Shown here: positions 1 to 10,801 of the stretch, one piece after another
How the letters are laid out: every line of letters starts with the position of its first letter
How positions within the stretch are numbered: position 1 is the stretch's first letter
NCBI RefSeq assembly: GCF_000711985.1
Contig: NZ_KL544007.1
Span: forward strand, 62,001 to 126,000
DNA: 64,000 nucleotides
Direction: 5' to 3'
Source: Rheinheimera texasensis DSM 17496
GTDB taxonomy: Bacteria > Pseudomonadota > Gammaproteobacteria > Enterobacterales > Alteromonadaceae
Position numbers and translations under genes: made by a program
Notes under the pieces: model-generated
What the model was told of the DNA's origin: nothing
The model's database searches: none
The model's input: only the letters and a program-made list of their open reading frames with translations

Positions 1-899
1 TTGGTCGTCCGGACTATGTGTCTATCCAGGGCGGTACTGTGGTCGGCACGCTGGCGAACCGTTCAGGTGGCAGCGGCTCATCAGGGAACCCAAGCCTGTT
101 ACCACTGGAATCGCAGAACTATGACTTCTCGGCCGAATGGTACTATGCCGAGGCAAGTTACTTGTCTGCCGGTTATTTCCGTAAAAACGTCACCAACTTT
201 ATTACCAACGTCAAAGTCGACTCGACCATTTACAACCTGGCGAACCCGGCGGATGGTAAAAAGTACCGCGAAGCTTTAGCGGCGGTGGGCGCGGATGCTG
301 CGGCGATCCGCAACTGGATCTTCGCCAATTATCCGAACGACCCGAGCGTCAACGTAGCGGGTAAAGTCATCAGCGGTAAAACCGGTGAAGACAATACGAT
401 GATCTTTAAGATCGACACGCCATCAAACGGTACAGAAGAAGAGACCATCGACGGTTGGGAATTTGCCATCCAGCACGCCTTTGGCGAGACCGGTTTTGGC
501 ACTATCCTGAACTACACCATGGTGGATTCAGGCGTTGAATATGACAACTTTATCCTGAAAGATCAGCCGGCGCTGGTCGGTTTAAGTGACACCGCTAACG
601 CCATCCTGTTCTATGAGAACAATGGTCTGCAGGCACGGGTTGCTTATAACTGGCGCGATGAGTTCTTAAATTCACGCGGTCAGGGCACAGGCGCCAACCC
701 GCAATATACCGAAGCTTATTCACAAATTGACGCGTCGGTCAGCTATGACCTGCCACAGGTGAAAGGCTTAACTGTGTATCTGGAAGCGCTAAACATCACT
801 GACGAGTACATCCGTGTGCATGGCCGTGCCAAAGAGCAGGTATTGAATCTGACTGAAGCCGGTTCCCGTTATAGCATCGGTGCCCGCTACAGCTTCTAA
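1..899 (+). CDS. TonB-dependent receptor, 3' part
   Basis: This is the C-terminal part of an outer-membrane TonB-dependent transporter; the reading frame (third base of the window onward) is open at the left edge, so the plug domain and signal peptide lie outside. About 298 codons are visible. The protein carries the NPSLLPLESQNYD stretch typical of carbohydrate-type TonB receptors, alternating beta-barrel strands, and ends in Phe after a Tyr/Arg-rich last strand, the usual outer-membrane insertion signal. Established knowledge: such receptors import scarce nutrients across the outer membrane using TonB/ExbBD energy. The downstream halogenase operon and beta-glucoside genes suggest that it takes up a plant- or algal-type glycoside, but this is inferred from neighbours only. 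A terminator follows it at 961-1015. Confidence 0.93.
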   Translation, partial: GRPDYVSIQGGTVVGTLANRSGGSGSSGNPSLLPLESQNYDFSAEWYYAEASYLSAGYFRKNVTNFITNVKVDSTIYNLANPADGKKYREALAAVGADAAAIRNWIFANYPNDPSVNVAGKVISGKTGEDNTMIFKIDTPSNGTEEETIDGWEFAIQHAFGETGFGTILNYTMVDSGVEYDNFILKDQPALVGLSDTANAILFYENNGLQARVAYNWRDEFLNSRGQGTGANPQYTEAYSQIDASVSYDLPQVKGLTVYLEALNITDEYIRVHGRAKEQVLNLTEAGSRYSIGARYSF

Positions 900-1076: not shown

Positions 1077-2672
1077 ATGCCAAGTTGTCCTCCTGCAAAA
1101 ACTGAAGTGCTGATTGTTGGTGGTGGTGCTGCCGGCTGGCTGACGGCTGCGGTACTGAGTGCCACGCACAATCTCGATGAAGGTGTCCTGGCGGCGCAGC
1201 CGCGGGTACAAGTCATTGTGCTGGAATCGCCCGATGTGCCAACCATTGGCGTCGGCGAAGGCACCTGGCCCTCGATGCGCCAGACGTTAAAGCTGATTGG
1301 TCTTTCTGAAACCGAATTCTTCCGTTGCTGCGACGTCAGCGCCAAACAAGGCTCTTTGTTTGTCGACTGGTTAGAACCCGGCAGCCACTATTTGCACCCG
1401 TTCATGCTGCCGGCTGGTTGGCCGGAATTTAATCTGGCCGGTTGTTGGTTGCCTTTTGCTGGCGACATCGCTTTTGCCGATGCCGTCACCACGCAATATC
1501 AGTTAAGCAAGGCCGGTTTTGCGCCGCGTTTGCCCCAGGCACCGGATTATCAGCCGGTACTCAATTACGGCTACCACTTAAACGCCGGCAAATTTACTGC
1601 GTTATTGCAGCGCCATTGTCAGGACAAACTTGGCGTCCGTTATGTGCCGGCACATTTAAAAGAGGTGGTGCTGCGTGCTGACGGCGCTATCGACAAATTG
1701 CTGGCGACGCCCGCAGGCAGCGCTGAGCTTGGTGTTTATCAGGCTGACTTATATGTCGATTGCACCGGCATGCAATCTTTGTTGCTCGGAAAAGCACTGC
1801 AGACGCCGCTCACCAGCGTCAAAGATATATTATTTAACGATCGCGCTTTGGCGGTGCAGGTGCCCTATCCGGATGCCGACACGCCGATTGCCAGCAATAC
1901 CATTTCAACTGCACAAGACAGTGGTTGGGTTTGGGATATTGGCCTGCCGACCCGCCGTGGCGTCGGTTTTGTGTATGCCAGCGATTATTGCTCTGACGAC
2001 GAAGCCGATGCCTGTCTGCGGAATTATCTGAAAAAAACGGCAGGTAGCAGCACACAGGCGGCGCTGTTTTTTGCAGAGCAGGCAGAACCGCGTCAGCTGC
2101 AATTCAAGCCGGGCTATCGTAATGGCTGCTGGCAGCACAACTGTGTCGCTGTTGGCATGGCGGCGGGTTTTATCGAACCGCTGGAAGCCTCAGCGCTGGC
2201 TCTGGTCGAATGGAGTGCCAAAACCTTGGCCGCCGCGCTACCGCTTGATCCGGCGTTATACAGCCTGGCTGGTGCCAAAATGAACCGGACTTTCCTGCGC
2301 CACTGGCAACAAATTATCGAATTTCTGAAGCTGCATTATGTGTTGTCCAAACGCGACACGCCGTATTGGCGCGCGCACCGCGATAGCGCCTCTATTCCGC
2401 AGACGTTACAGGACCAGCTACAGCTGTGGCAGCAGCAAGTGCCGCAACCGCTTGATTTTGCTTATCAGGATTTGCTGTTTCCCGCCGCCAGCTATCAATA
2501 TGTGTTGTACGGCATGGGTGCGCTGACGCAGACGTTAGCGGCCAAACCGTCGCAACAGGCACGTGCCCGCGCGTTGTTTGCGCAAAACTATCAGGATTTA
2601 ACCAGGCTGCAGCAACTGCTGCCGGATAACCGGCAATTGCTGCAACAGCTGGCGCTGAAAAACCAAAACTAA
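1077..2672 (+). CDS. Flavin-dependent halogenase, tryptophan-halogenase family, divergent type
   Basis: The 531-residue protein belongs to the FADH2-dependent tryptophan halogenase family (PF04820), cytoplasmic enzymes that make HOX and pass it to an active-site lysine. The FAD motif GGGAAGW is at residues 15-21. GVGEGTWP follows near 58-65, where classical enzymes have GEATIP. Lys90 aligns with PrnA/RebH Lys79. The EPLE segment ends at Glu370, the counterpart of PrnA Glu346, but Ala follows where PrnA has Ser347. The WxWxIP motif is changed to WVWDIG. The start is ATG with AAAAGG about 8 nt upstream. It is the first gene of a five-gene operon. No flavin reductase is visible in the window. 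The substrate is unknown: family members near TonB receptors in Xanthomonas, Brevundimonas and Caulobacter-type bacteria have been linked with indole bromination, so free tryptophan should not be assumed. Confidence 0.88.
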   Translation: MPSCPPAKTEVLIVGGGAAGWLTAAVLSATHNLDEGVLAAQPRVQVIVLESPDVPTIGVGEGTWPSMRQTLKLIGLSETEFFRCCDVSAKQGSLFVDWLEPGSHYLHPFMLPAGWPEFNLAGCWLPFAGDIAFADAVTTQYQLSKAGFAPRLPQAPDYQPVLNYGYHLNAGKFTALLQRHCQDKLGVRYVPAHLKEVVLRADGAIDKLLATPAGSAELGVYQADLYVDCTGMQSLLLGKALQTPLTSVKDILFNDRALAVQVPYPDADTPIASNTISTAQDSGWVWDIGLPTRRGVGFVYASDYCSDDEADACLRNYLKKTAGSSTQAALFFAEQAEPRQLQFKPGYRNGCWQHNCVAVGMAAGFIEPLEASALALVEWSAKTLAAALPLDPALYSLAGAKMNRTFLRHWQQIIEFLKLHYVLSKRDTPYWRAHRDSASIPQTLQDQLQLWQQQVPQPLDFAYQDLLFPAASYQYVLYGMGALTQTLAAKPSQQARARALFAQNYQDLTRLQQLLPDNRQLLQQLALKNQN

Positions 2673-2694
2673 AAATGAAGAGAGGGATTGCCGC

Positions 2695-3420
2695 ATGACC
2701 AACACTGTTTTATTAAATGCCGCCGACCATGTCGATCTGCGTGTGATCACGGCGCGTGGCGCGAAGTACGGCGACAATCAATGGTTTGCCACTACATTCC
2801 CGCTGGAATTTCGTAGTTGTGCGGCCTGTTATCCGCTGTTTTTTTTCAAAGATAATCAGAGCCAGCAAACTTATCCGGTCGCGCTGTTTGGCTTTCGCCA
2901 TGGCGAGAATCTGTTTCTGGCCGACGGTTGGCAGGAGCAATATCTGCCTTTGTCGGTACGTCGACAGCCGTTTTTAATCGGCCGTCAGCAAGTGCGGGAA
3001 GACGGCATGGTGCGGGAGCAACGCGTTTTGCATATTGCGTTGGACCATCCACGTGTCAGTAAAGATGAAGGCGAGCCGCTGTTTTTGCCTTATGGCGGCC
3101 AGACGCCGTTTCTGCAGGATATGGCGGGTATGCTGGAAACACTGCATTTGGGTATGCAGGATGCAAACAATTTCGTCGCGTTGCTGGAGCAATATCAGCT
3201 GCTGGAACCGGTGACGGTCAATGTCACTTTAAAAGACGGCAGCAGCCATCAGCTGGTGGGTTTTTTGACCATCGCTGAAGAGCAGCTGGCAAATCTTGAT
3301 GGTGCAGCACTGGCGCAATTGCATCAGCATGGTTACCTGCAAGCGATTTATCTGATGATCGCCTCACAAGCGCAGATCCGGCAGCTGGTGACGCTGAAAA
3401 ACCAACAGTTGGGGTTATAA
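2695..3420 (+). CDS. SapC family protein
   Basis: The 241-residue soluble protein resembles the SapC family (PF07277), with the typical N-terminal region around AADHVDLRVITARGAKYGD, then FPLEFRSCAACYPLFFFKD, and a conserved middle part with PLFLPYGG. No signal peptide or membrane helix is seen. A strong Shine-Dalgarno GAAGAGAGGG (2677-2686) precedes the ATG. It starts 22 nt after the first halogenase gene and ends 3 nt before the cupin gene, so the genes are almost certainly co-transcribed. SapC-family proteins recur beside TonB receptors and flavin halogenases in several proteobacteria. Their biochemical role is not established; the name comes from an S-layer connection that need not apply here. 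Confidence 0.8.
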   Translation: MTNTVLLNAADHVDLRVITARGAKYGDNQWFATTFPLEFRSCAACYPLFFFKDNQSQQTYPVALFGFRHGENLFLADGWQEQYLPLSVRRQPFLIGRQQVREDGMVREQRVLHIALDHPRVSKDEGEPLFLPYGGQTPFLQDMAGMLETLHLGMQDANNFVALLEQYQLLEPVTVNVTLKDGSSHQLVGFLTIAEEQLANLDGAALAQLHQHGYLQAIYLMIASQAQIRQLVTLKNQQLGL

Positions 3421-3423
3421 AAC

Positions 3424-4473
3424 GTGCAGCCGGTCGCGGAACTGAGTCTCACAACTGAGCCAGGCAAGTCGCCGGATGCGGCGCTGCTCACGGCTGTGTT
3501 AAAAAACGCCGAAGCGCCGCTGGTACTGCGTGGCCTGTGCCGCGACTGGCCGCTGACGCAGGCCGGTTTAAAAAGTCCGGCGGCCGCGCTGGACTTGTTG
3601 CAAAGCTACAGTGCCGGTTTGCCGGTGAGCGCCTGCTATTTGCCGCCTGAAACCCGGGGCCGGGTGTTTTACAACGCGGATTTTTCCGGCTTTAACTATC
3701 AGGGCGGCCCGCTGCCTTTTGCTGATTTATGTCAGCGGCTGCTGGACCCGGCGCTAAGCGCCAGCGGCGCCTCGATTTATATGGGTTCAACTGAAGTCGG
3801 CCAGTATTTCCCCGGCATCCGCGAACAGCATCAGCTGCCGCTGCAAGGCTTACTTAATGGGGGGCCGGGCGCAGCGCAGGCTTTAGTCAGTATCTGGCTT
3901 GGCAGCAAAAGCCGCATCGCGGCGCATTATGATTTCCCGCATAACCTGGCTTGTAATCTGGTTGGCCATCGCCGTTTTACCTTGTTCCCGCCTGAGCAGG
4001 TGGTGAATCTGTATCCGGGGCCGATGGAATTTGCGCCGGGAGGGCAGGATGTCAGTCTGGTGGATTTTGCCGCACCGGATTTTGACCGTTTTCCGCGTTT
4101 TGCCGACGCTTTGGCCGCTGGTTTTCAGGTGACCTTAGCGCCTGGCGATGTACTTTTTATGCCGTCGATGTGGTGGCACCATGTTGAAGCGCTGGACGAC
4201 GTAAATTTACTGCTGACGCACTGGTGGCGTGACACACCGGCATATCTCGGTCGGCCAAACAATGCGTTGCTGAGTGCCATGCTCAGCATCCGCCATTTAC
4301 CCAAAGCGCAGCGCAAAGCCTGGCAGGCGTTATTTGACTATTACATTTTTGCCGACGAACCGGGCGGTGGTACAGAACTGCCACCGGCGGCGCAGGGCTT
4401 GTTGCGTCAGCCGCTGGATGAAGCCACGGCGCGGGCGCTTCGAAGCCTGATCATTCAGAAATTACAACGATAA
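3424..4473 (+). CDS. Cupin-like (JmjC/cupin-8) 2-oxoglutarate oxygenase family protein
   Basis: The 349-residue protein has a JmjC/cupin-8 double-stranded beta-helix (PF13621). The metal triad is visible: His168-Tyr-Asp170 (HxD), with the distal histidine in the MWWHHVE motif (His252/253). This spacing matches FIH-like hydroxylases, Fe(II)/2-oxoglutarate enzymes that hydroxylate protein side chains. The N-terminal part contains APLVLRGLCRDWPL, which resembles the common 'P.v.rG...dWpa' opening of cupin-8 proteins. The start is GTG three nt after the SapC stop, with TTGGGG upstream. Cupin-8 proteins accompany flavin halogenases in TonB-linked loci. Whether it acts on a protein, a peptide or a small molecule is unknown. 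Confidence 0.85.
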   Translation: MQPVAELSLTTEPGKSPDAALLTAVLKNAEAPLVLRGLCRDWPLTQAGLKSPAAALDLLQSYSAGLPVSACYLPPETRGRVFYNADFSGFNYQGGPLPFADLCQRLLDPALSASGASIYMGSTEVGQYFPGIREQHQLPLQGLLNGGPGAAQALVSIWLGSKSRIAAHYDFPHNLACNLVGHRRFTLFPPEQVVNLYPGPMEFAPGGQDVSLVDFAAPDFDRFPRFADALAAGFQVTLAPGDVLFMPSMWWHHVEALDDVNLLLTHWWRDTPAYLGRPNNALLSAMLSIRHLPKAQRKAWQALFDYYIFADEPGGGTELPPAAQGLLRQPLDEATARALRSLIIQKLQR

Positions 4474-4491
4474 AACAACAGGATTGGACAG

Positions 4492-6018
4492 ATGCAGATG
4501 ATGAAAAAACAACGGGTGGTGATCGCCGGCGGCGGCACTGCAGGCTGGATGACCGCGGCAGCCCTTGGCAAACTGATGGGCAAACAGCTGGATGTGACGT
4601 TGGTCGAGTCTGACGAGATTGGCACTGTCGGCGTTGGCGAAGCGACTATCCCGACTTTGCATCTGTACCATCGCCTGCTCAATATCAACGAAGCCGACAT
4701 GATGGCCGCGACCAACGCCACTTTTAAGCTCGGCATCATGTTTGAAAATTGGCGCGACGTGGGCAAAGACTATCTGCACTCTTTTGGCTTTTTAGGCAAA
4801 GACTGCTGGGCCTGTGGTTTTCAGCATTTCTGGCTCAAAGGCCGTGAAATGGGGTTGGCTTCCGAGATTGGCGATTATTGCGCTGAGCATCTGGCCGCGC
4901 GCGAAGGGCGTTTTGCGGCGCTGGCAGGGCAGGATCAGAACCATGCCTACCATTTTGATGCCAGCCTTTATGCCAAATTTCTGCGCGGTATCGCCGAAAC
5001 CCATGGCGTTAAACGTATCGAGGGCAAAATCGCCGAGGTACAACAGCATGTGTATGAGCAACAGCATGTAAACGGACAGCAGCATCCGCAAAACGGTTTT
5101 ATTAAAGCGCTGTTGCTAGAATCCGGCCAGCTGCTTGAAGGTGATTTATTTATCGATTGCACCGGTTTCCGTGGCCTGTTGATTGAACAGACGTTGATGA
5201 CCGGTTACGACGACTGGACGCATTGGTTACCCTGTGACAGCGCTGTGGCCGTACAAACAGTGTCGACCGGTACGCCGGTGCCTTATACCCGCTCGATTTC
5301 GCATCCGGCCGGCTGGCAATGGCGCATCCCGCTGCAAAGCCGTGTTGGTAATGGCCTGGTCTATTGCAGCAAATATCTGTCTGATATGGATGCAAAAACC
5401 TTATTAAAAGCCAATGTGCAGGGCGAGATGCTGACCGAGCCGCGGCTGATTAAATTCCGTACCGGCACCCGGCGCAAACACTGGAATAAAAACTGTATTG
5501 CTATTGGTTTATCGAGCGGGTTTTTGGAGCCGCTGGAATCGACCAGTATCCACCTGATTCAGCGCAGTATTATCCGGCTGTTACAGATGATGCCGGCTGG
5601 CGAAGTGATTCAGGCCGATGTCGATGAATTTAACCAGCAGACCAAAATCGAAATGGAGAACATCCGCGATTTTATTATCCTGCACTACAAAGTGACGGAG
5701 CGCAGCGACAGTGCCTTCTGGCGCCATTGCGCGGCGATGGAGATCCCGCCATCGTTAGCGCATCGCATCGAGATGTTTGGTGAGGCTGGCAAGGTGTATA
5801 AATTTGCTCAGGAACTGTTCGGCGAAAGCTCCTGGATCCAGGTCATGCTGGGGCAGGGTCTGAAACCAAAACAACACCATCCGATTGTTGATTTGATGCC
5901 ACAGTCGGAGCTCGCCCAGTTCCTTGCCAATATCAAAACCAATGTGGCAAGGCAGGTGCAGGCATGGCCACCGCACTATGATTTTGTGCAGCACTACTGC
6001 AAAAGTCGGATGATGTAA
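4492..6018 (+). CDS. Flavin-dependent halogenase, tryptophan-halogenase family, canonical type
   Basis: This second halogenase (508 residues) keeps the classical motifs better than the first. The FAD motif GGGTAGW is at 13-19 and GVGEATIPT near 47-55. The catalytic lysine falls at residue 79 (ATFKLG), as in PrnA and RebH. The WxWxIP motif appears as WQWRIP, and EPLEST places the active-site glutamate at 349 followed by Ser. It is cytoplasmic and needs FADH2 from an unlinked reductase. ATG follows a weak CAGGA about 8 nt upstream; a second ATG lies two codons downstream. It starts 18 nt after the cupin gene and ends one base before the next start codon. A glutamine/histidine-rich insert near residues 184-200 (QQHVYEQQHVNGQQH) is unusual. 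The substrate is unknown. Confidence 0.9.
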   Translation: MQMMKKQRVVIAGGGTAGWMTAAALGKLMGKQLDVTLVESDEIGTVGVGEATIPTLHLYHRLLNINEADMMAATNATFKLGIMFENWRDVGKDYLHSFGFLGKDCWACGFQHFWLKGREMGLASEIGDYCAEHLAAREGRFAALAGQDQNHAYHFDASLYAKFLRGIAETHGVKRIEGKIAEVQQHVYEQQHVNGQQHPQNGFIKALLLESGQLLEGDLFIDCTGFRGLLIEQTLMTGYDDWTHWLPCDSAVAVQTVSTGTPVPYTRSISHPAGWQWRIPLQSRVGNGLVYCSKYLSDMDAKTLLKANVQGEMLTEPRLIKFRTGTRRKHWNKNCIAIGLSSGFLEPLESTSIHLIQRSIIRLLQMMPAGEVIQADVDEFNQQTKIEMENIRDFIILHYKVTERSDSAFWRHCAAMEIPPSLAHRIEMFGEAGKVYKFAQELFGESSWIQVMLGQGLKPKQHHPIVDLMPQSELAQFLANIKTNVARQVQAWPPHYDFVQHYCKSRMM

Positions 6019-6019
6019 G

Positions 6020-6733
6020 GTGTATGCCTTTAATCCACATGCGCAGGTGCATTGGCTGGAATTAGGCCAAAGCCGCACGCGCGCTTTATTGATTGATGAT
6101 GCGCTGACGGACCTGTCCCGGATCCGTCAGGATGCTTTAGCGGCCAGCTTTCGCGAAGACACAGCGTCGTATTACCCTGGCATTCGGGCTGAGATGCCAC
6201 AGGCCTATGCCCGTGCTGTACTGGAAGCCGTGTATCCGTTGTTATTGCAGCTGGTGCAGCCACCGCCGGACTATCGGTTAGTGCCGCAACAGTGGTATTT
6301 GTCGTTGCTGACCACTCCTGCTGAAAAGCTGCAGCCGCTGCAGCGCTTGCCGCATTTTGACAAAGCTGAACCGCTGCATCTGGCGATTTTGCATTATTTG
6401 GCCGAAGGCCCGCATGGCGGTACCGGTTTTTTCCGCCACGAAGCGACCGGTTTTGACAAGATTTCGCCAGAGCAGCAACAGCAGTACTTCAGCACCTTGC
6501 AACAACAGCTCACGGCTCAAGGTGGGGCTGCACCTGGCTTTCCGTCTGCTGAAACGCCGTTTTTCTGCCTTTATCAGCAGCTTGCTTATAAACCTAACCG
6601 TTTATTGATTTATCCCGGCCATTTACTGCATTCGGCTTTAGTGGAACCGGCGACAGACTTGTCTGCAGATCCGCTGACCGGCCGGCTGACAGCCAACGTG
6701 TTTGTGCAGTTTCAGCCCAAAGCGTCCCAATGA
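6020..6733 (+). CDS. DUF6445 family, 2-oxoglutarate oxygenase-like protein
   Basis: The 237-residue protein looks like the DUF6445 family. It has the core pattern of a 2OG-Fe(II) dioxygenase fold: His112-Phe-Asp114 (HxD), then the GGTGFFRH segment, and a distal histidine in PGHLLHS (His201 or His204). The GTG start lies one base after the halogenase stop, which implies translational coupling. As the last gene of the halogenase operon it is the second probable non-heme iron protein in the set. No signal peptide is seen. Its reaction is unknown; the iron site is inferred from motif spacing rather than alignment. Confidence 0.75.
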   Translation: MYAFNPHAQVHWLELGQSRTRALLIDDALTDLSRIRQDALAASFREDTASYYPGIRAEMPQAYARAVLEAVYPLLLQLVQPPPDYRLVPQQWYLSLLTTPAEKLQPLQRLPHFDKAEPLHLAILHYLAEGPHGGTGFFRHEATGFDKISPEQQQQYFSTLQQQLTAQGGAAPGFPSAETPFFCLYQQLAYKPNRLLIYPGHLLHSALVEPATDLSADPLTGRLTANVFVQFQPKASQ

Positions 6734-6774: not shown

Positions 6775-6870
6775 AGTGACATTTATTGCTGAAAAGCTAA
6801 GAAAAAATACGAAATTTCAATCTGCTCTCTTTGTCTGCTTGACCATTCGCTGAGCTGTTGTTACAGTCAA

Positions 6871-6886
6871 TTGAAAGCGCTTACAA
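6871..6886. promoter_or_regulatory. LacI-type operator, copy 3
   Basis: TTGAAAGCGCTTACAA, AGCGCT core at 6876-6881, exactly 112 bp from the core of copy 2. It lies about 100 bp before the GH1 start codon. The paired spacing would allow DNA looping by the repressor encoded at 9800-10801. Confidence 0.7.
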
Positions 6887-6983
6887 AATAAGATCTGTGA
6901 CCTGCCCAAACCAGGCAGCGTTACAGACGAACCCGGTCAGGGGACATGACAAGACGACCTTGCAGCACAGCAAAGAGACCAGC

Positions 6984-8318
6984 ATGACATTACAATTGCC
7001 AGCGGATTCCCGCATTTTAAACACCGATTTTGTATTTGGTGTTGCCACATCTTCCTTTCAGATTGAAGGGGGGCTGGATAGCCGGCTCCCTTGTATCTGG
7101 GATACTTTTTGCACCCAGCCCGGCGCTATTCGTGATGGCAGTCACGGTGCTGTGGCTTGTGACCATATCCGTTTATGGCGCGAGGATGTAGAGCTCATTC
7201 AGTCTCTTGGTGTGGATGCATATCGGTTGTCGTTGTCCTGGCCGCGGGTAATGCAACAAAATGGCGAACTCAATCCAACCGGCGTGGCGTTTTATCGTGA
7301 CCTGCTTGGCACGTTAAAAGCGCAAGGCATCCGCACTTTTGTCACTTTGTATCACTGGGATTTACCACAATATCTGGAAGACGAGGGCGGCTGGCGTAAT
7401 CGCGCCACAGCCTACGCTTTTGCCGATTATGCCGACAAAATCTCCAAAGCGCTGGCGGATCTGGTTGATGCCTGGGCTACTCTGAATGAGCCGTTTTGCA
7501 GCTCTTACCTCGGTTATGAAATAGGCGTGCACGCACCGGGTTTAAAGAACAAAGGCTGGGGCCGGCAAAGTGCGCACCATTTGCTGTTGGCGCACGGCCT
7601 TGCCATGCCTAAACTCCGGCAAAACGCGCCGCAGGCACAACATGGTATCGTGTTAAATTTCACCCCTTGTTATGCCGAAACGGATGCGCTGGCTGATGTT
7701 GCAGCAGCAGATTATGCTGACCAGTACTTTAATCAGTGGTATATCAAACCCTTGTTTGATAAAGCTTATCCGGCATGTTTCAGTCAGCTTTCGGCAGAAG
7801 AACAGCCGCAAATTCAGCCCGGTGATTTTGACATTATCGCGGCGCCGCTGGACTATCTGGGCATAAACTTCTACACCCGGCATGTCTATCGCGCCGATGC
7901 ACAGCAGGGTTTTGTCGTGGTCGATCAGGTCGGCGTTGCCAAAACTGATATTGGCTGGGAAATTTATCCGCAGGCTTTTACTGATCTGCTGCTGGATTTA
8001 CACCGCCGTTACCCGTTACCACCGCTTTATATCATGGAAAACGGCGCGGCCGGTGCTGATGAGCTGGTGGATGGCAAGGTGCAGGACGATATGCGGCTTG
8101 GTTATTATCAGCAACATTTGCTGGCACTGGATAATGCGATGCGGCAAGGTGTGGATGTGCGTGGTTATTTCGCCTGGAGCCTGATGGATAACTTCGAGTG
8201 GGCTGAAGGTTATCTGAAACGCTTTGGCATTGTGTATGTCGATTACGCCACGCAGCAGCGCGTGATTAAACAAAGCGGTTTAGCCTTTCGCGACCTGAGC
8301 TTAAGCCGCAAAGGCTAA
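6984..8318 (+). CDS. GH1 family beta-glucosidase
   Basis: The 444-residue protein is a glycoside hydrolase family 1 retaining beta-glucosidase or related enzyme. The FVFGVATSSFQIEG opening, the acid/base Glu169 in TLNEP and the nucleophile Glu352 in YIMENG are all present, and the length is standard for GH1. No signal peptide is seen, so it hydrolyses beta-glucosides in the cytoplasm after import. I chose the ATG at 6984 because AAAGAGA stands just upstream and the GH1 fold begins soon after; a longer frame from 6858 would run through the operator at 6871. It is followed by a GPH symporter, LacI regulator and lactonase in the same direction. Sugar specificity (cellobiose, laminaribiose or aryl-glucosides such as salicin) cannot be read from sequence. 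Confidence 0.94.
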   Translation: MTLQLPADSRILNTDFVFGVATSSFQIEGGLDSRLPCIWDTFCTQPGAIRDGSHGAVACDHIRLWREDVELIQSLGVDAYRLSLSWPRVMQQNGELNPTGVAFYRDLLGTLKAQGIRTFVTLYHWDLPQYLEDEGGWRNRATAYAFADYADKISKALADLVDAWATLNEPFCSSYLGYEIGVHAPGLKNKGWGRQSAHHLLLAHGLAMPKLRQNAPQAQHGIVLNFTPCYAETDALADVAAADYADQYFNQWYIKPLFDKAYPACFSQLSAEEQPQIQPGDFDIIAAPLDYLGINFYTRHVYRADAQQGFVVVDQVGVAKTDIGWEIYPQAFTDLLLDLHRRYPLPPLYIMENGAAGADELVDGKVQDDMRLGYYQQHLLALDNAMRQGVDVRGYFAWSLMDNFEWAEGYLKRFGIVYVDYATQQRVIKQSGLAFRDLSLSRKG

Positions 8319-8395: not shown

Positions 8396-9724
8396 ATGCT
8401 CAGCAAGCGGGAGAAGATCGCATACGGTCTTGGTGATACCGCCAGTAATATCGTGTTCCAGACGGTCATGATGTTTCTGACTTATTTTTATACCGATATT
8501 TTTGGTTTAGCGCCGGCTTATATTGGTTTTATGTTCCTCGCCGTGCGCATTATTGATGCAGTGACAGACCCGTTGATGGGCGCTATCGCCGACCGCACTC
8601 AGAGTAAACACGGCAAGTTCCGGCCTTATATTTTGTGGGGCGCTATTCCTTTTGGCCTTTTAAGTGTGCTGGCTTTCACCACGCCGGATTTGTCCGACCA
8701 GGGCAAAATGATTTACGCCTTCGTCACTTACACCTTGCTGATGCTGGTGTATACCGCAGTCAATATTCCGTATTGCGCGTTAGGCGGCGTGTTAACCGCA
8801 GATCCGCAGGAGCGGGTATCGGTGCAGTCTTACCGTTTTGTCTGCGCTTTTATCGGTGGTTTATTGGTGTCGGCGCTGACGCTACCGCTGGTGGATTATT
8901 TTGGCGCCGGTGATAAAGCCAAAGGTTATCAGCTGACGATTCTGTTGATGAGCGTCGCCGGTGTGGCGATGTTTTTACTTTGTTTTGCCGGCACCAAAGA
9001 GCGGGTACAGACCGTTCTTGAACGCAAAACCAATTTCCGTCAGGATTTTAAAGCCTTATGGCAAAATGACCAATGGCGGGTGTTATCTGTGGCCGCGTTG
9101 TTTTTGCTGACCGGTAATGTGCTGAAAAACACCATGGCGATTTATTACGTCAAATATTATCTTGGCGCGCCGGATGACATCACTTTATTCATTACTTTGG
9201 GCATGTTCGGCAGTATGCTGGGGTGTATCGTTGCCAACCCACTGGCGAAAAAGGTCGAAAAAGTGAAGGCCTACATCGGTTTACAACTGGCAGCCGCGTT
9301 TTTCTGTGCACTGAGTTACTGGATTGCTGCGGATCAGCTGAGTCTCGCTTTTGCCGTCTTTATCGCCTGGAACTTCTGCTTTAATGCCGCCACGCCGTTG
9401 TTGTGGGCCAAGATGGCTGATACGGTTGATTATGGCGAGTGGAAAACCGGCATCCGCACCACAGGCATGGTGTATTCGTCGATTATTTTCTTTATCAAAC
9501 TGGGGCTGGCGTTGGGTGGTGCCGCTGCCGGCTGGCTGTTGGCCGGTTATGGCTATCAGGCTGATACCGAGCAAACGGAAACGGCCCGCAATGGCATTTT
9601 ATTGTCATTCAGCTTGTTCCCGGCCATTGGTTCAGTGATTGTTGCTATCGTGATGCGGCATTATCTGCTGGATACCGCCAAAGTGGCGTCGATTCAGGCG
9701 CAGTTGAAGCAAAGCGCCGGTTAA
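8396..9724 (+). CDS. GPH-family glycoside:cation symporter (MelB-like)
   Basis: The 442-residue inner-membrane protein has about 12 hydrophobic segments and the hallmarks of the glycoside-pentoside-hexuronide:cation symporter family. The N-terminus KREKIAYGLGDTASN is typical, and Asp54 and Asp58 in the DAVTDPLMG motif match the cation-binding Asp55 and Asp59 of MelB. The motif ADRTQSKHGKFRPYI marks the first cytoplasmic loop. ATG is preceded by ACAGGGTGG. Next to a cytoplasmic GH1 glucosidase it most likely brings an intact beta-glucoside across the inner membrane with Na+ or H+. Substrate and coupling ion are inferred. Confidence 0.92.
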   Translation: MLSKREKIAYGLGDTASNIVFQTVMMFLTYFYTDIFGLAPAYIGFMFLAVRIIDAVTDPLMGAIADRTQSKHGKFRPYILWGAIPFGLLSVLAFTTPDLSDQGKMIYAFVTYTLLMLVYTAVNIPYCALGGVLTADPQERVSVQSYRFVCAFIGGLLVSALTLPLVDYFGAGDKAKGYQLTILLMSVAGVAMFLLCFAGTKERVQTVLERKTNFRQDFKALWQNDQWRVLSVAALFLLTGNVLKNTMAIYYVKYYLGAPDDITLFITLGMFGSMLGCIVANPLAKKVEKVKAYIGLQLAAAFFCALSYWIAADQLSLAFAVFIAWNFCFNAATPLLWAKMADTVDYGEWKTGIRTTGMVYSSIIFFIKLGLALGGAAAGWLLAGYGYQADTEQTETARNGILLSFSLFPAIGSVIVAIVMRHYLLDTAKVASIQAQLKQSAG

Positions 9725-9799: not shown

Positions 9800-10801
9800 A
9801 TGGCTACGATTTACGATGTCTCACTGCGCGCCGGCGTGTCGCTGGCGACAGTGTCCCGGGTCATTAACAAAAACAGCAATGTCAGCGAAAAAACCCGGCA
9901 AAAAGTGCTGGATGCGATGGCTGAGCTGGATTACCGGCCCAATACCATTGCGCAGTCACTGGCGTCCAATGTGTCAAATAGTGTCGGTGTGCTGGTGTCG
10001 CAACTGGACGGTCCGTATTACGGCCCGATGATGGCCGAAATTGAAGCGGCGCTGCGCGCGCAAAATAAACATGTGATCATTGCGGTTGGCCATAGCGACG
10101 CAGCAGTGGAGCAAGACAGCGTTGAATTTCTGCTCAGTCGCGGTTGTGATGCGCTCATTCTTGATGTTGAAGCGGTGTCGGATGAATATCTGGTACAGCT
10201 GAGTCAGCGTTCAGTGCCGATTGTGCTGATCAACCGCTACATTCAGGCGATGGAACCCAGCTGCATTTACCTTAATAACGAACTGGGCGGTTATCTGGCC
10301 ACCCGTCATCTGGTGGATTTAGGCCATCGCAGCATTGCGTATATCTCAGGGCCAAAAAACAAACATGACGCGATGGAGCGTTTGGTTGGCCACCAGCGTG
10401 CGTTGGCTGAAGGTGGCCTGGTGTATGACCCGGCGCTTTATATCGAAGGTGATTATAAAGAAGAGGGTGGTGAAGCCGGCATGTTGGCGCTGCTACAAAC
10501 CGGTAAATCGTTTTCGGCGCTGGTCTGCGCCAACGACCAGATGGCGTCCGGTGCTATTGCCGTTTGTCTGCAACGTGGTCTGGTGATCCCAAGGGATCTG
10601 TCTGTGATCGGTTACGACAACATTCCTTTTGCCAAATACATTTCACCTAAGCTGACGACCGTCAACAACCCTATCCATGAGATGGGCAAGATGGCAGCCT
10701 TGTGGGTGCTGCGTCATGTTTATGCCGACGACCAGACGCAGGTCAATAATGTGTTTGAACCTGAACTGGTGGTGCGTGGCTCTGCCATTCGCGCCCAATA
10801 A
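9800..10801 (+). CDS. LacI-family transcriptional regulator
   Basis: The 333-residue protein has an N-terminal LacI helix-turn-helix with hinge helix (residues 2-58: TIYDVSLRAGVSLATVSRVI, then RPNTIAQSLAS) and a C-terminal periplasmic-binding-protein-like ligand domain starting at SNSVGVLVSQ. It is encoded within the glucoside operon, 75 nt after the transporter, and probably represses it through the AGCGCT-core sites at 6759 and 6871, and perhaps also at 956. The inducer is probably a beta-glucoside or phosphate-free sugar. A weak Shine-Dalgarno (TTGGGGG, 9781-9787) stands before the ATG. Confidence 0.93.
   Translation: MATIYDVSLRAGVSLATVSRVINKNSNVSEKTRQKVLDAMAELDYRPNTIAQSLASNVSNSVGVLVSQLDGPYYGPMMAEIEAALRAQNKHVIIAVGHSDAAVEQDSVEFLLSRGCDALILDVEAVSDEYLVQLSQRSVPIVLINRYIQAMEPSCIYLNNELGGYLATRHLVDLGHRSIAYISGPKNKHDAMERLVGHQRALAEGGLVYDPALYIEGDYKEEGGEAGMLALLQTGKSFSALVCANDQMASGAIAVCLQRGLVIPRDLSVIGYDNIPFAKYISPKLTTVNNPIHEMGKMAALWVLRHVYADDQTQVNNVFEPELVVRGSAIRAQ

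Follow-up and report, generated by a model that had tools for sequence, protein, structure and literature searches.

The system considered here is a cassette of two flavin-dependent halogenases, a SapC-family protein and two putative non-heme iron oxygenases, which lies just downstream of a TonB-dependent receptor (TBDR) gene in a 64,000-nt stretch of the Rheinheimera texasensis DSM 17496 genome (contig NZ_KL544007.1, positions 62,001 to 126,000 of the forward strand; hereafter the window). Among its closest described relatives are enzymes that brominate indoles. The second, or B-type, halogenase of the window matches BrvH (PDB 6FRL) and PDB 6Y1W, which we take to be Xcc4156, with phmmer E values of 1.7e-138 and 1.5e-192, respectively; the first, or A-type, halogenase has its nearest solved relative in PDB 2PYX (E 5e-177), presumably from Shewanella frigidimarina, the PDB molecule name of which is only "Tryptophan halogenase". 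BrvH and Xcc4156 brominate indole or indole derivatives in vitro, do not take free tryptophan and have open active sites; the papers that describe them suggest that the substrates may be larger molecules or peptides (PMC5945002, PMC7336383). Free indole is brominated by purified BrvH, but the activity is low enough that indole may, according to the authors, not be the natural substrate (PMC5945002), and for BrvH and three halogenases of Xanthomonas the native substrate was stated to be unknown (PMC7336383). Both proteins were described as single enzymes (PMC5945002, PMC7336383), whereas the window halogenases come with a defined set of genomic partners; the word "TonB" does not occur in the main text of either report, nor does "SapC" in that of PMC5945002, the only text checked for it.

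QhpG, a peptidyl-tryptophan dihydroxylase, is a flavoenzyme that acts on tryptophan inside a protein before export (PMC7876137). However, it is a hydroxylating enzyme and has a radical SAM partner, whereas no radical SAM gene was found among ten window genes scanned, and the match of the A-type halogenase to the QhpG family is weak (28.3 bits, far under the cut-off of 240). The lanthipeptide halogenase MibH (PDB 5UAO), presumably located in a biosynthetic cluster, acts on a small ribosomally synthesized and post-translationally modified peptide (RiPP) and is distant from the B-type halogenase (E 3.6e-48). MibH is nevertheless a PF04820 protein that halogenates tryptophan only within a peptide (PMC5945002, PMC7336383). 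Among solved oxygenases, the nearest relatives by sequence of the Cupin_8 member of the window are the protein hydroxylases FIH, JMJD5 and JMJD7, with which it has HxD...H in common, but the alignment with FIH covers only about 115 residues. FIH, JMJD5 and JMJD7 act on proteins, on substrates of their own. The enzyme families of the cassette are thus each already known, and its parts are not new; the cassette and receptor as a unit, and any paper linking SapC or DUF6445 to halogenases, were not found in the open full-text literature (most subscription papers and all preprints lie outside that scope). Halogenase and SapC-like genes have reportedly been listed in Xanthomonas and Caulobacter, in TonB loci related to N-acetylglucosamine or maltodextrin. 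The "SapC" of PMC6680617 is a different protein, a peptide-transport permease, and that of PMC4911050 is part of a clay name.

In the window, the C-terminal part of the receptor gene (positions 3..899, + strand; its start lies left of the window) ends 177 nt before five open reading frames (ORFs), all on the + strand. These encode, in order, the A-type halogenase (1077..2672; SapC-associated clade, with K90, E370 and WxWxIG), the SapC-family protein (PF07277; 2695..3420; AlphaFold2 mean pLDDT 90), a Cupin_8/JmjC-like putative 2-oxoglutarate oxygenase (3424..4473; H168, D170 and H252; nearest to FIH, then JMJD5 and JMJD7), the B-type halogenase (4492..6018; K79, E349 and WxWxIP; best PDB matches 6Y1W and 9LUQ, then BrvH), and a DUF6445 protein, a putative non-heme iron 2-oxoglutarate oxygenase (6020..6733; H112, D114, H204 and R222). 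The whole receptor gene in the genome encodes 988 aa and matches TIGR01782 (TonB-Xanth-Caul; cut-off 310) with 655.9 bits. All five cassette proteins likewise exceeded their Pfam cut-offs, with 360.5 and 614.7 bits for Trp_halogenase in the first and second halogenases, 224.8 for SapC, 215.5 for Cupin_8 and 234.3 for DUF6445 (PF20043; cut-off 24). The original prediction, made from the letters of the sequence, was therefore right in the families, positions and strand of the five genes, as it was in assigning a catalytic Lys and Glu to both halogenases and HxD...H to both oxygenase-like proteins; the single operon that it proposed is supported by intergenic gaps of 22, 3, 18 and 1 nt. Such gaps leave no space for a precursor peptide gene between the cassette genes, although short ORFs elsewhere were not searched. 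It had also seen no nonribosomal peptide synthetase or polyketide synthase (NRPS/PKS) and no flavin reductase gene, which holds for the ten window genes scanned, and in family scans (no cluster-finding program was used) of these ten and of ten genes from the halogenase loci of the source genome, the halogenases were not accompanied by genes for NRPS/PKS, tryptophan or export. Nothing in the ten window genes is a sign of a classical natural-product cluster, again as predicted.

The reading we favor, at a rough probability of 0.4, is that the cassette is a dedicated cytosolic set that modifies side chains of the sugar receptor, a TonB-dependent protein whose gene lies directly upstream; the data suggest, without proving, that the halogenases and oxygenases decorate the receptor protein itself. 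Upon induction of the glycan locus, here through the LacI regulator, receptor and enzymes would be produced together, and SapC would bind the unfolded receptor before export and present it to both halogenases and both oxygenases. The halogenases, using O2, halide and FADH2 that a general reductase supplies, would halogenate aromatic side chains of the receptor, the Cupin_8 and DUF6445 oxygenases would hydroxylate other side chains, and the modified receptor would be exported and then inserted into the outer membrane. SapC as adaptor and a receptor precursor as substrate would together explain why the cassette has no precursor peptide gene, why the sugar genes are changeable and why the relatives of the halogenases have open sites. 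We infer the receptor as substrate and SapC as adaptor, together with the co-regulation, timing, halogen and residues.

The cassette recurs in a conserved order. A scan for DUF6445 yielded 31 loci, which include near relatives and are not independent; genes were called by matching profiles to every ORF of 60 aa or more (E <=1e-12 for these loci, 1e-8 for those analyzed later), the models having been built from the same loci, and each gene was started at its first possible start codon, which makes some computed gaps negative. Anywhere in the fetched stretch, a halogenase was present in 30 of these loci, a TBDR in 29, SapC in 28 and Cupin_8 in 11; the whole set with the receptor occurred in 10/31 and the set without Cupin_8 in 17/31, and one locus (L078) had DUF6445 alone. 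The order TBDR-HalA-SapC-Cup8-HalB-DUF6445 was found in Rheinheimera, Shewanella and Ferrimonas, TBDR-SapC-Cup8-HalB-DUF6445 in Gilvimarinus, and TBDR-HalA-SapC-DUF6445 in Microbulbifer, Catenovulum, Pseudoalteromonas, Colwellia and Thalassotalea. The same gene order across so many genera is more than a chance array, and the linkage of families on which the original prediction had staked its idea of a shared system is indeed conserved. Gaps of 60 nt or less (overlaps included) separate halogenase and SapC in 30/36 cases, SapC and Cupin_8 in 33/33, and SapC and DUF6445 in 18/18; for TBDR and halogenase the figure is 10/60. In a metagenome-assembled genome of the Colwelliaceae, SapC and DUF6445 form one open frame of 493 codons directly behind the receptor gene (L083:3380-4861); this is a single case, which a sequencing error could mimic.

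Because anchoring on DUF6445 is biased, a second draw was anchored on the halogenase. Of 299 genomes drawn evenly from the phylum, 35 had a halogenase (PF04820 at E 1e-80) and 47 a TIGR01782 receptor (at 1e-95); both were present in 32, halogenase only in 3, TBDR only in 15 and neither in 249 (Fisher p 3.7e-28, which takes no account of kinship). Few candidates were scored per genome (at most 5 for PF04820 and 3 for TIGR01782; at most 13 and 7 in two other searches); gene counts are thus lower bounds, and "no halogenase" means no match at the threshold. All places outside the source genome and genome G012 were fetched and neighbors were merged, giving 80 regions from 33 genomes that are again not independent. 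The usual partner is the receptor: it was present in 62 of the 80 halogenase loci, as compared with 28 each for SapC and Cupin_8 and 10 for DUF6445, and was within 5 kb of 88 of the 113 halogenase genes (SapC, 37; Cupin_8, 44; DUF6445, 12). Receptor and halogenase alone was the form of 27 loci, receptor-halogenase-SapC-Cupin_8 that of 18, halogenase alone that of 12 and the whole set that of 3, with 20 others. The sugar enzymes flanking the 62 receptor-halogenase loci were GH13 (14), GH3 (14), a second GH3 type (8), GH97 (6), GH1 (3) and what is presumably GH42 (1), counted with queries only from loci of the source genome and two named loci, so that other enzymes went uncounted; LacI was present in 26/62. 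Since the glycan genes vary between loci while receptor and halogenase stay, the receptor, and not the glycan, is the constant.

The catalytic residues are intact. After filtering by length and score, 165 of 178 halogenase matches were retained, with the catalytic Lys in 163/165, the Glu in 164/165 and GxGxxG in 164/165. The window pair has the Pfam match, GxGxxG, the Lys and Glu, and the WxWxI motif (WxWxIG in the A type) of the family, and halogenation activity is predicted for both. Trp4, the C-terminal motif of free-tryptophan halogenases of the PrnA/RebH/PyrH type (PMC8269204), occurred as the simple pattern [YHF]YHG in none of the 165 homologues, the window pair included, and is likewise absent from BrvH and Xcc4156; the window halogenases would therefore not be classed as free-tryptophan enzymes. 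A filter of 180-420 aa and >150 bits passed 42/45 Cupin_8 and 43/44 DUF6445 matches; H168/D170/H252 were invariant in all 42 of the former, and H112/D114/H204 and the Arg in all 43 of the latter. The Cupin_8 member, with its family match and HxD...H, is a putative protein hydroxylase. DUF6445 is a candidate member of the Fe(II)/2-oxoglutarate oxygenase superfamily, in which an HxD...H...R/K pattern sits on a double-stranded beta-helix; it keeps HxD, H and R but has no sequence match in the PDB. Ten low-scoring PF04820-like proteins (L097, L103, L105, L107, L108, L109, L123, L125, L175 and L176) were seen in addition, none of which has a Lys in the catalytic column (L103 aligns poorly); eight lie between or beside true halogenases, and the ten may be flavin monooxygenases, or else partners that do not halogenate. 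In L105, L107, L108, L109, L123 and L125, three or four PF04820 genes form an array, either consecutive or facing each other.

The source genome shows the same exchange of sugar genes. It has 7 halogenases and 18 TIGR01782 receptors above cut-off, together with 4 SapC and 2 DUF6445 genes, and 6 of the 7 halogenases are in loci headed by 4 of the 18 receptors, each with different sugar enzymes: GH3 and GH1 in the window, GH13, GH97, and an aldose epimerase with an SSF symporter and SapC (near which is a gene that we take to be GH42). The tie to nutrient uptake in the original prediction is supported, but a special tie to aryl-beta-glucosides or indoles is not, as halogenases of the same family are found in GH13/GH97, GH3/GH1 and other sugar loci alike. 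The cassette might still make or alter a small molecule, such as indole, phenol or an aryl aglycone imported or freed during glycan uptake, with the receptor linkage reflecting import and shared regulation; we consider this unlikely, though it is the most serious of the alternatives. The glycan genes differ by locus whereas receptor and halogenase are constant, and these changing genes speak against an aromatic-glycoside pathway; no aromatic-catabolic, NRPS/PKS or drug-export genes were among the own-genome locus genes scanned, and the solved enzymes nearest to the Cupin_8 member have proteins as substrates. What a small-molecule substrate has in its favor is the in vitro bromination of indole or its derivatives by BrvH and Xcc4156 (PMC5945002, PMC7336383), tempered by the doubt of the BrvH authors, given low activity, that indole is natural to it (PMC5945002), as well as the beta-glucosidase gene adjoining the window cassette, and the sugar transporter, ECF sigma factor and FecR genes that neighbor many DUF6445 loci.

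SapC also lies beside large ORFs away from halogenases. A draw of 114 genomes of the class gave 22 SapC genes in 16 genomes, of which 16 genes were outside the source genome and away from halogenases. An ORF of at least 1200 aa was within 2 kb of 9 of these 16, as compared with 11/483 control ORFs of 220-290 aa and 4/40 receptors. Among the giant ORFs scanned, that of L058 has a TPS secretion domain and that of L048 an LEPR-XLL domain, and no family matched that of L050 in the domain scan; secretion partners were close by in L052 (ShlB/POTRA) and L048 (an outer-membrane efflux protein). The neighbors of SapC in L049 include a PqqD-containing protein that resembles a RiPP metalloprotease, an HlyD protein and a short SecA-like protein, and two loci fetched as halogenase matches, L175 and L176, have a PF04820-like flavoprotein lacking the catalytic Lys near SapC, with an LEPR-XLL giant in L176. 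The company of SapC with DUF3467, HlyD, PqqD-containing and short SecA-like genes was scanned in L049, and L175 and L176 are alike by eye; the setting resembles a system for exporting giant surface proteins. Common to both SapC settings is an adjoining large ORF, which is an exported surface protein where identified, and a receptor precursor as substrate, with SapC as client adaptor for exported surface proteins, is the most economical reading. The role of substrate holder originally predicted for SapC is compatible with this company and with the one SapC-DUF6445 fusion, but is unproved.

It is improbable that the client is SapC itself or a SapC complex (a modified carrier or sensor), the receptor gene being merely co-regulated. 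Its tight packing with the enzymes (30/36, 33/33 and 18/18 gaps of 60 nt or less), Trp79 in 59/59 SapC copies from halogenase loci and the fusion would all suit such a client; nevertheless, Trp79 is also present in 18/19 (0.95) copies with no halogenase in the locus, and 27/80 halogenase loci have a receptor but no SapC, Cupin_8 or DUF6445. Trp79, nearly invariant in SapC, is thus not halogenase-specific, and its presence was rejected as a specific sign of a halogenation site.

Halogenase subclades match the partner set: one clade has 43 members, 41 of them with SapC within 1.5 kb, another has 35, with SapC near 32 and Cupin_8 near 33, and the remaining clades are mostly receptor-only. On a tree of 157 receptors, the SapC-linked label (59 receptors) takes 6 changes versus 47.6 when shuffled; note that L209 and L215, which had been fetched among 40 supposedly unlinked receptors, turned out to have a halogenase and were counted as linked. 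The main SapC-linked group holds 58 of the 59, with L168 placed elsewhere, and includes none of the 23 receptors (L177-L199) whose genomes gave no halogenase match; three of these 23 (L180, L198 and L199) sit among receptors linked to halogenase alone. Over 71 nearest pairs from 32 genomes, halogenase and receptor distances had a rank correlation of 0.147, whereas within-genome shuffles reached at most 0.102 (0/1000 attained the observed value); this agreement is a weak but specific signal. Genomic hitch-hiking, in which mobile glycan-use loci gather unrelated enzymes (e.g., for detoxifying halide or peroxide) that share no pathway, might account for the tandem halogenases of several loci and for the varying cassette subsets, but is improbable given the conserved order with gaps near zero across genera, the intact catalytic Lys (163/165) and Glu (164/165), the match of subclades to partner sets, and the shuffle test (0.147 vs a best of 0.102).

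Several points weigh against the receptor as the substrate. The distance correlation is weak. Although columns such as W328, W907, K184, N292 and R979 (window receptor numbering) separate the SapC-linked receptors among the 157, three unlinked receptors from halogenase-bearing genomes (L022, L206 and L212) lie inside the SapC-linked group and retain 37, 34 and 36 of the 40 signature residues. When the 157 were compared by linkage class, no residue tracked linkage, and because these nested receptors mostly keep the separating residues, none can be named as a target; either enzymes encoded elsewhere serve these receptors in trans, or the signature reflects nothing more than descent. A smaller comparison (36 linked vs 15 own receptors) was confounded by clade. 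A TBDR is absent from 18/80 halogenase loci, among which L169 starts at a contig end and L170, L175 and L176 are from genomes without a TIGR01782 match. The whole set is found in only 3/80, shorter forms being commoner; the five families named originally are the full form, present with the receptor in 10/31 DUF6445 loci. No giant ORF was near 7 of the 16 SapC genes away from halogenases. The linkage could reflect shared induction alone, and we know of no halogenated outer-membrane receptor. Receptors are exported unfolded, and their meeting with cytosolic enzymes is unexplained. A small molecule is possible in that purified BrvH brominates free indole (PMC5945002), and the case for the receptor is drawn from gene context. 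In its favor, the Cupin_8 member is nearest to FIH, JMJD5 and JMJD7.

Were receptor modification to be correct, a native substrate would be in hand for the orphan "indole halogenases" known from marine and plant-associated bacteria, halogenation would become a protein modification of outer-membrane transporters, and SapC and DUF6445 would gain functions; sugar-receptor biology would also gain a chemical layer, which could matter for uptake and for phage or bacteriocin recognition. The usual genomic partner makes the native-substrate question directly testable on the receptor. That many Gram-negative glycan receptors are halogenated and hydroxylated by a machine of PF04820, SapC and 2-oxoglutarate oxygenases, the SapC adaptor of which also serves giant surface proteins, is a wider idea that we hold as possible, if doubtful.

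The seventh halogenase of the source genome is in an operon on contig C5 (G000:C5:1083807-1086792) with the order halogenase-SapC-DUF6445-ECF sigma-FecR-sugar transporter and no adjoining receptor. In other species, halogenase-SapC-DUF6445 with nearby ECF sigma and FecR genes is headed by a receptor, and the only one scanned, that of L080, has an N-terminal STN domain. The own receptor nearest to those heading relatives of the C5 operon is L010 (G000:C9:174768-177503), at the end of contig C9, with 40/40 signature residues; a receptor of the ECF/FecR-linked group is thus apart from the operon here, whereas the relatives have it at the operon head. The fourth own SapC (C4:262915) has no nearby halogenase, and a receptor is 4.4 kb upstream of it.

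The window cassette lies, as originally noted, between a TonB receptor and beta-glucoside genes. A GH3 enzyme gene is upstream of the receptor on the opposite strand, and the cassette is followed by the GH1 beta-glucosidase of the surrounding glycan-use locus (6858..8318, + strand; its real start is possibly further in), a GPH-family sugar symporter (8396..9724, + strand), a LacI-family regulator (9800..10801, + strand) and an SMP-30-type protein. The ORF of the last overlaps the end of the LacI gene by 125 bases (window 10677-10801), and its real start is probably further in.

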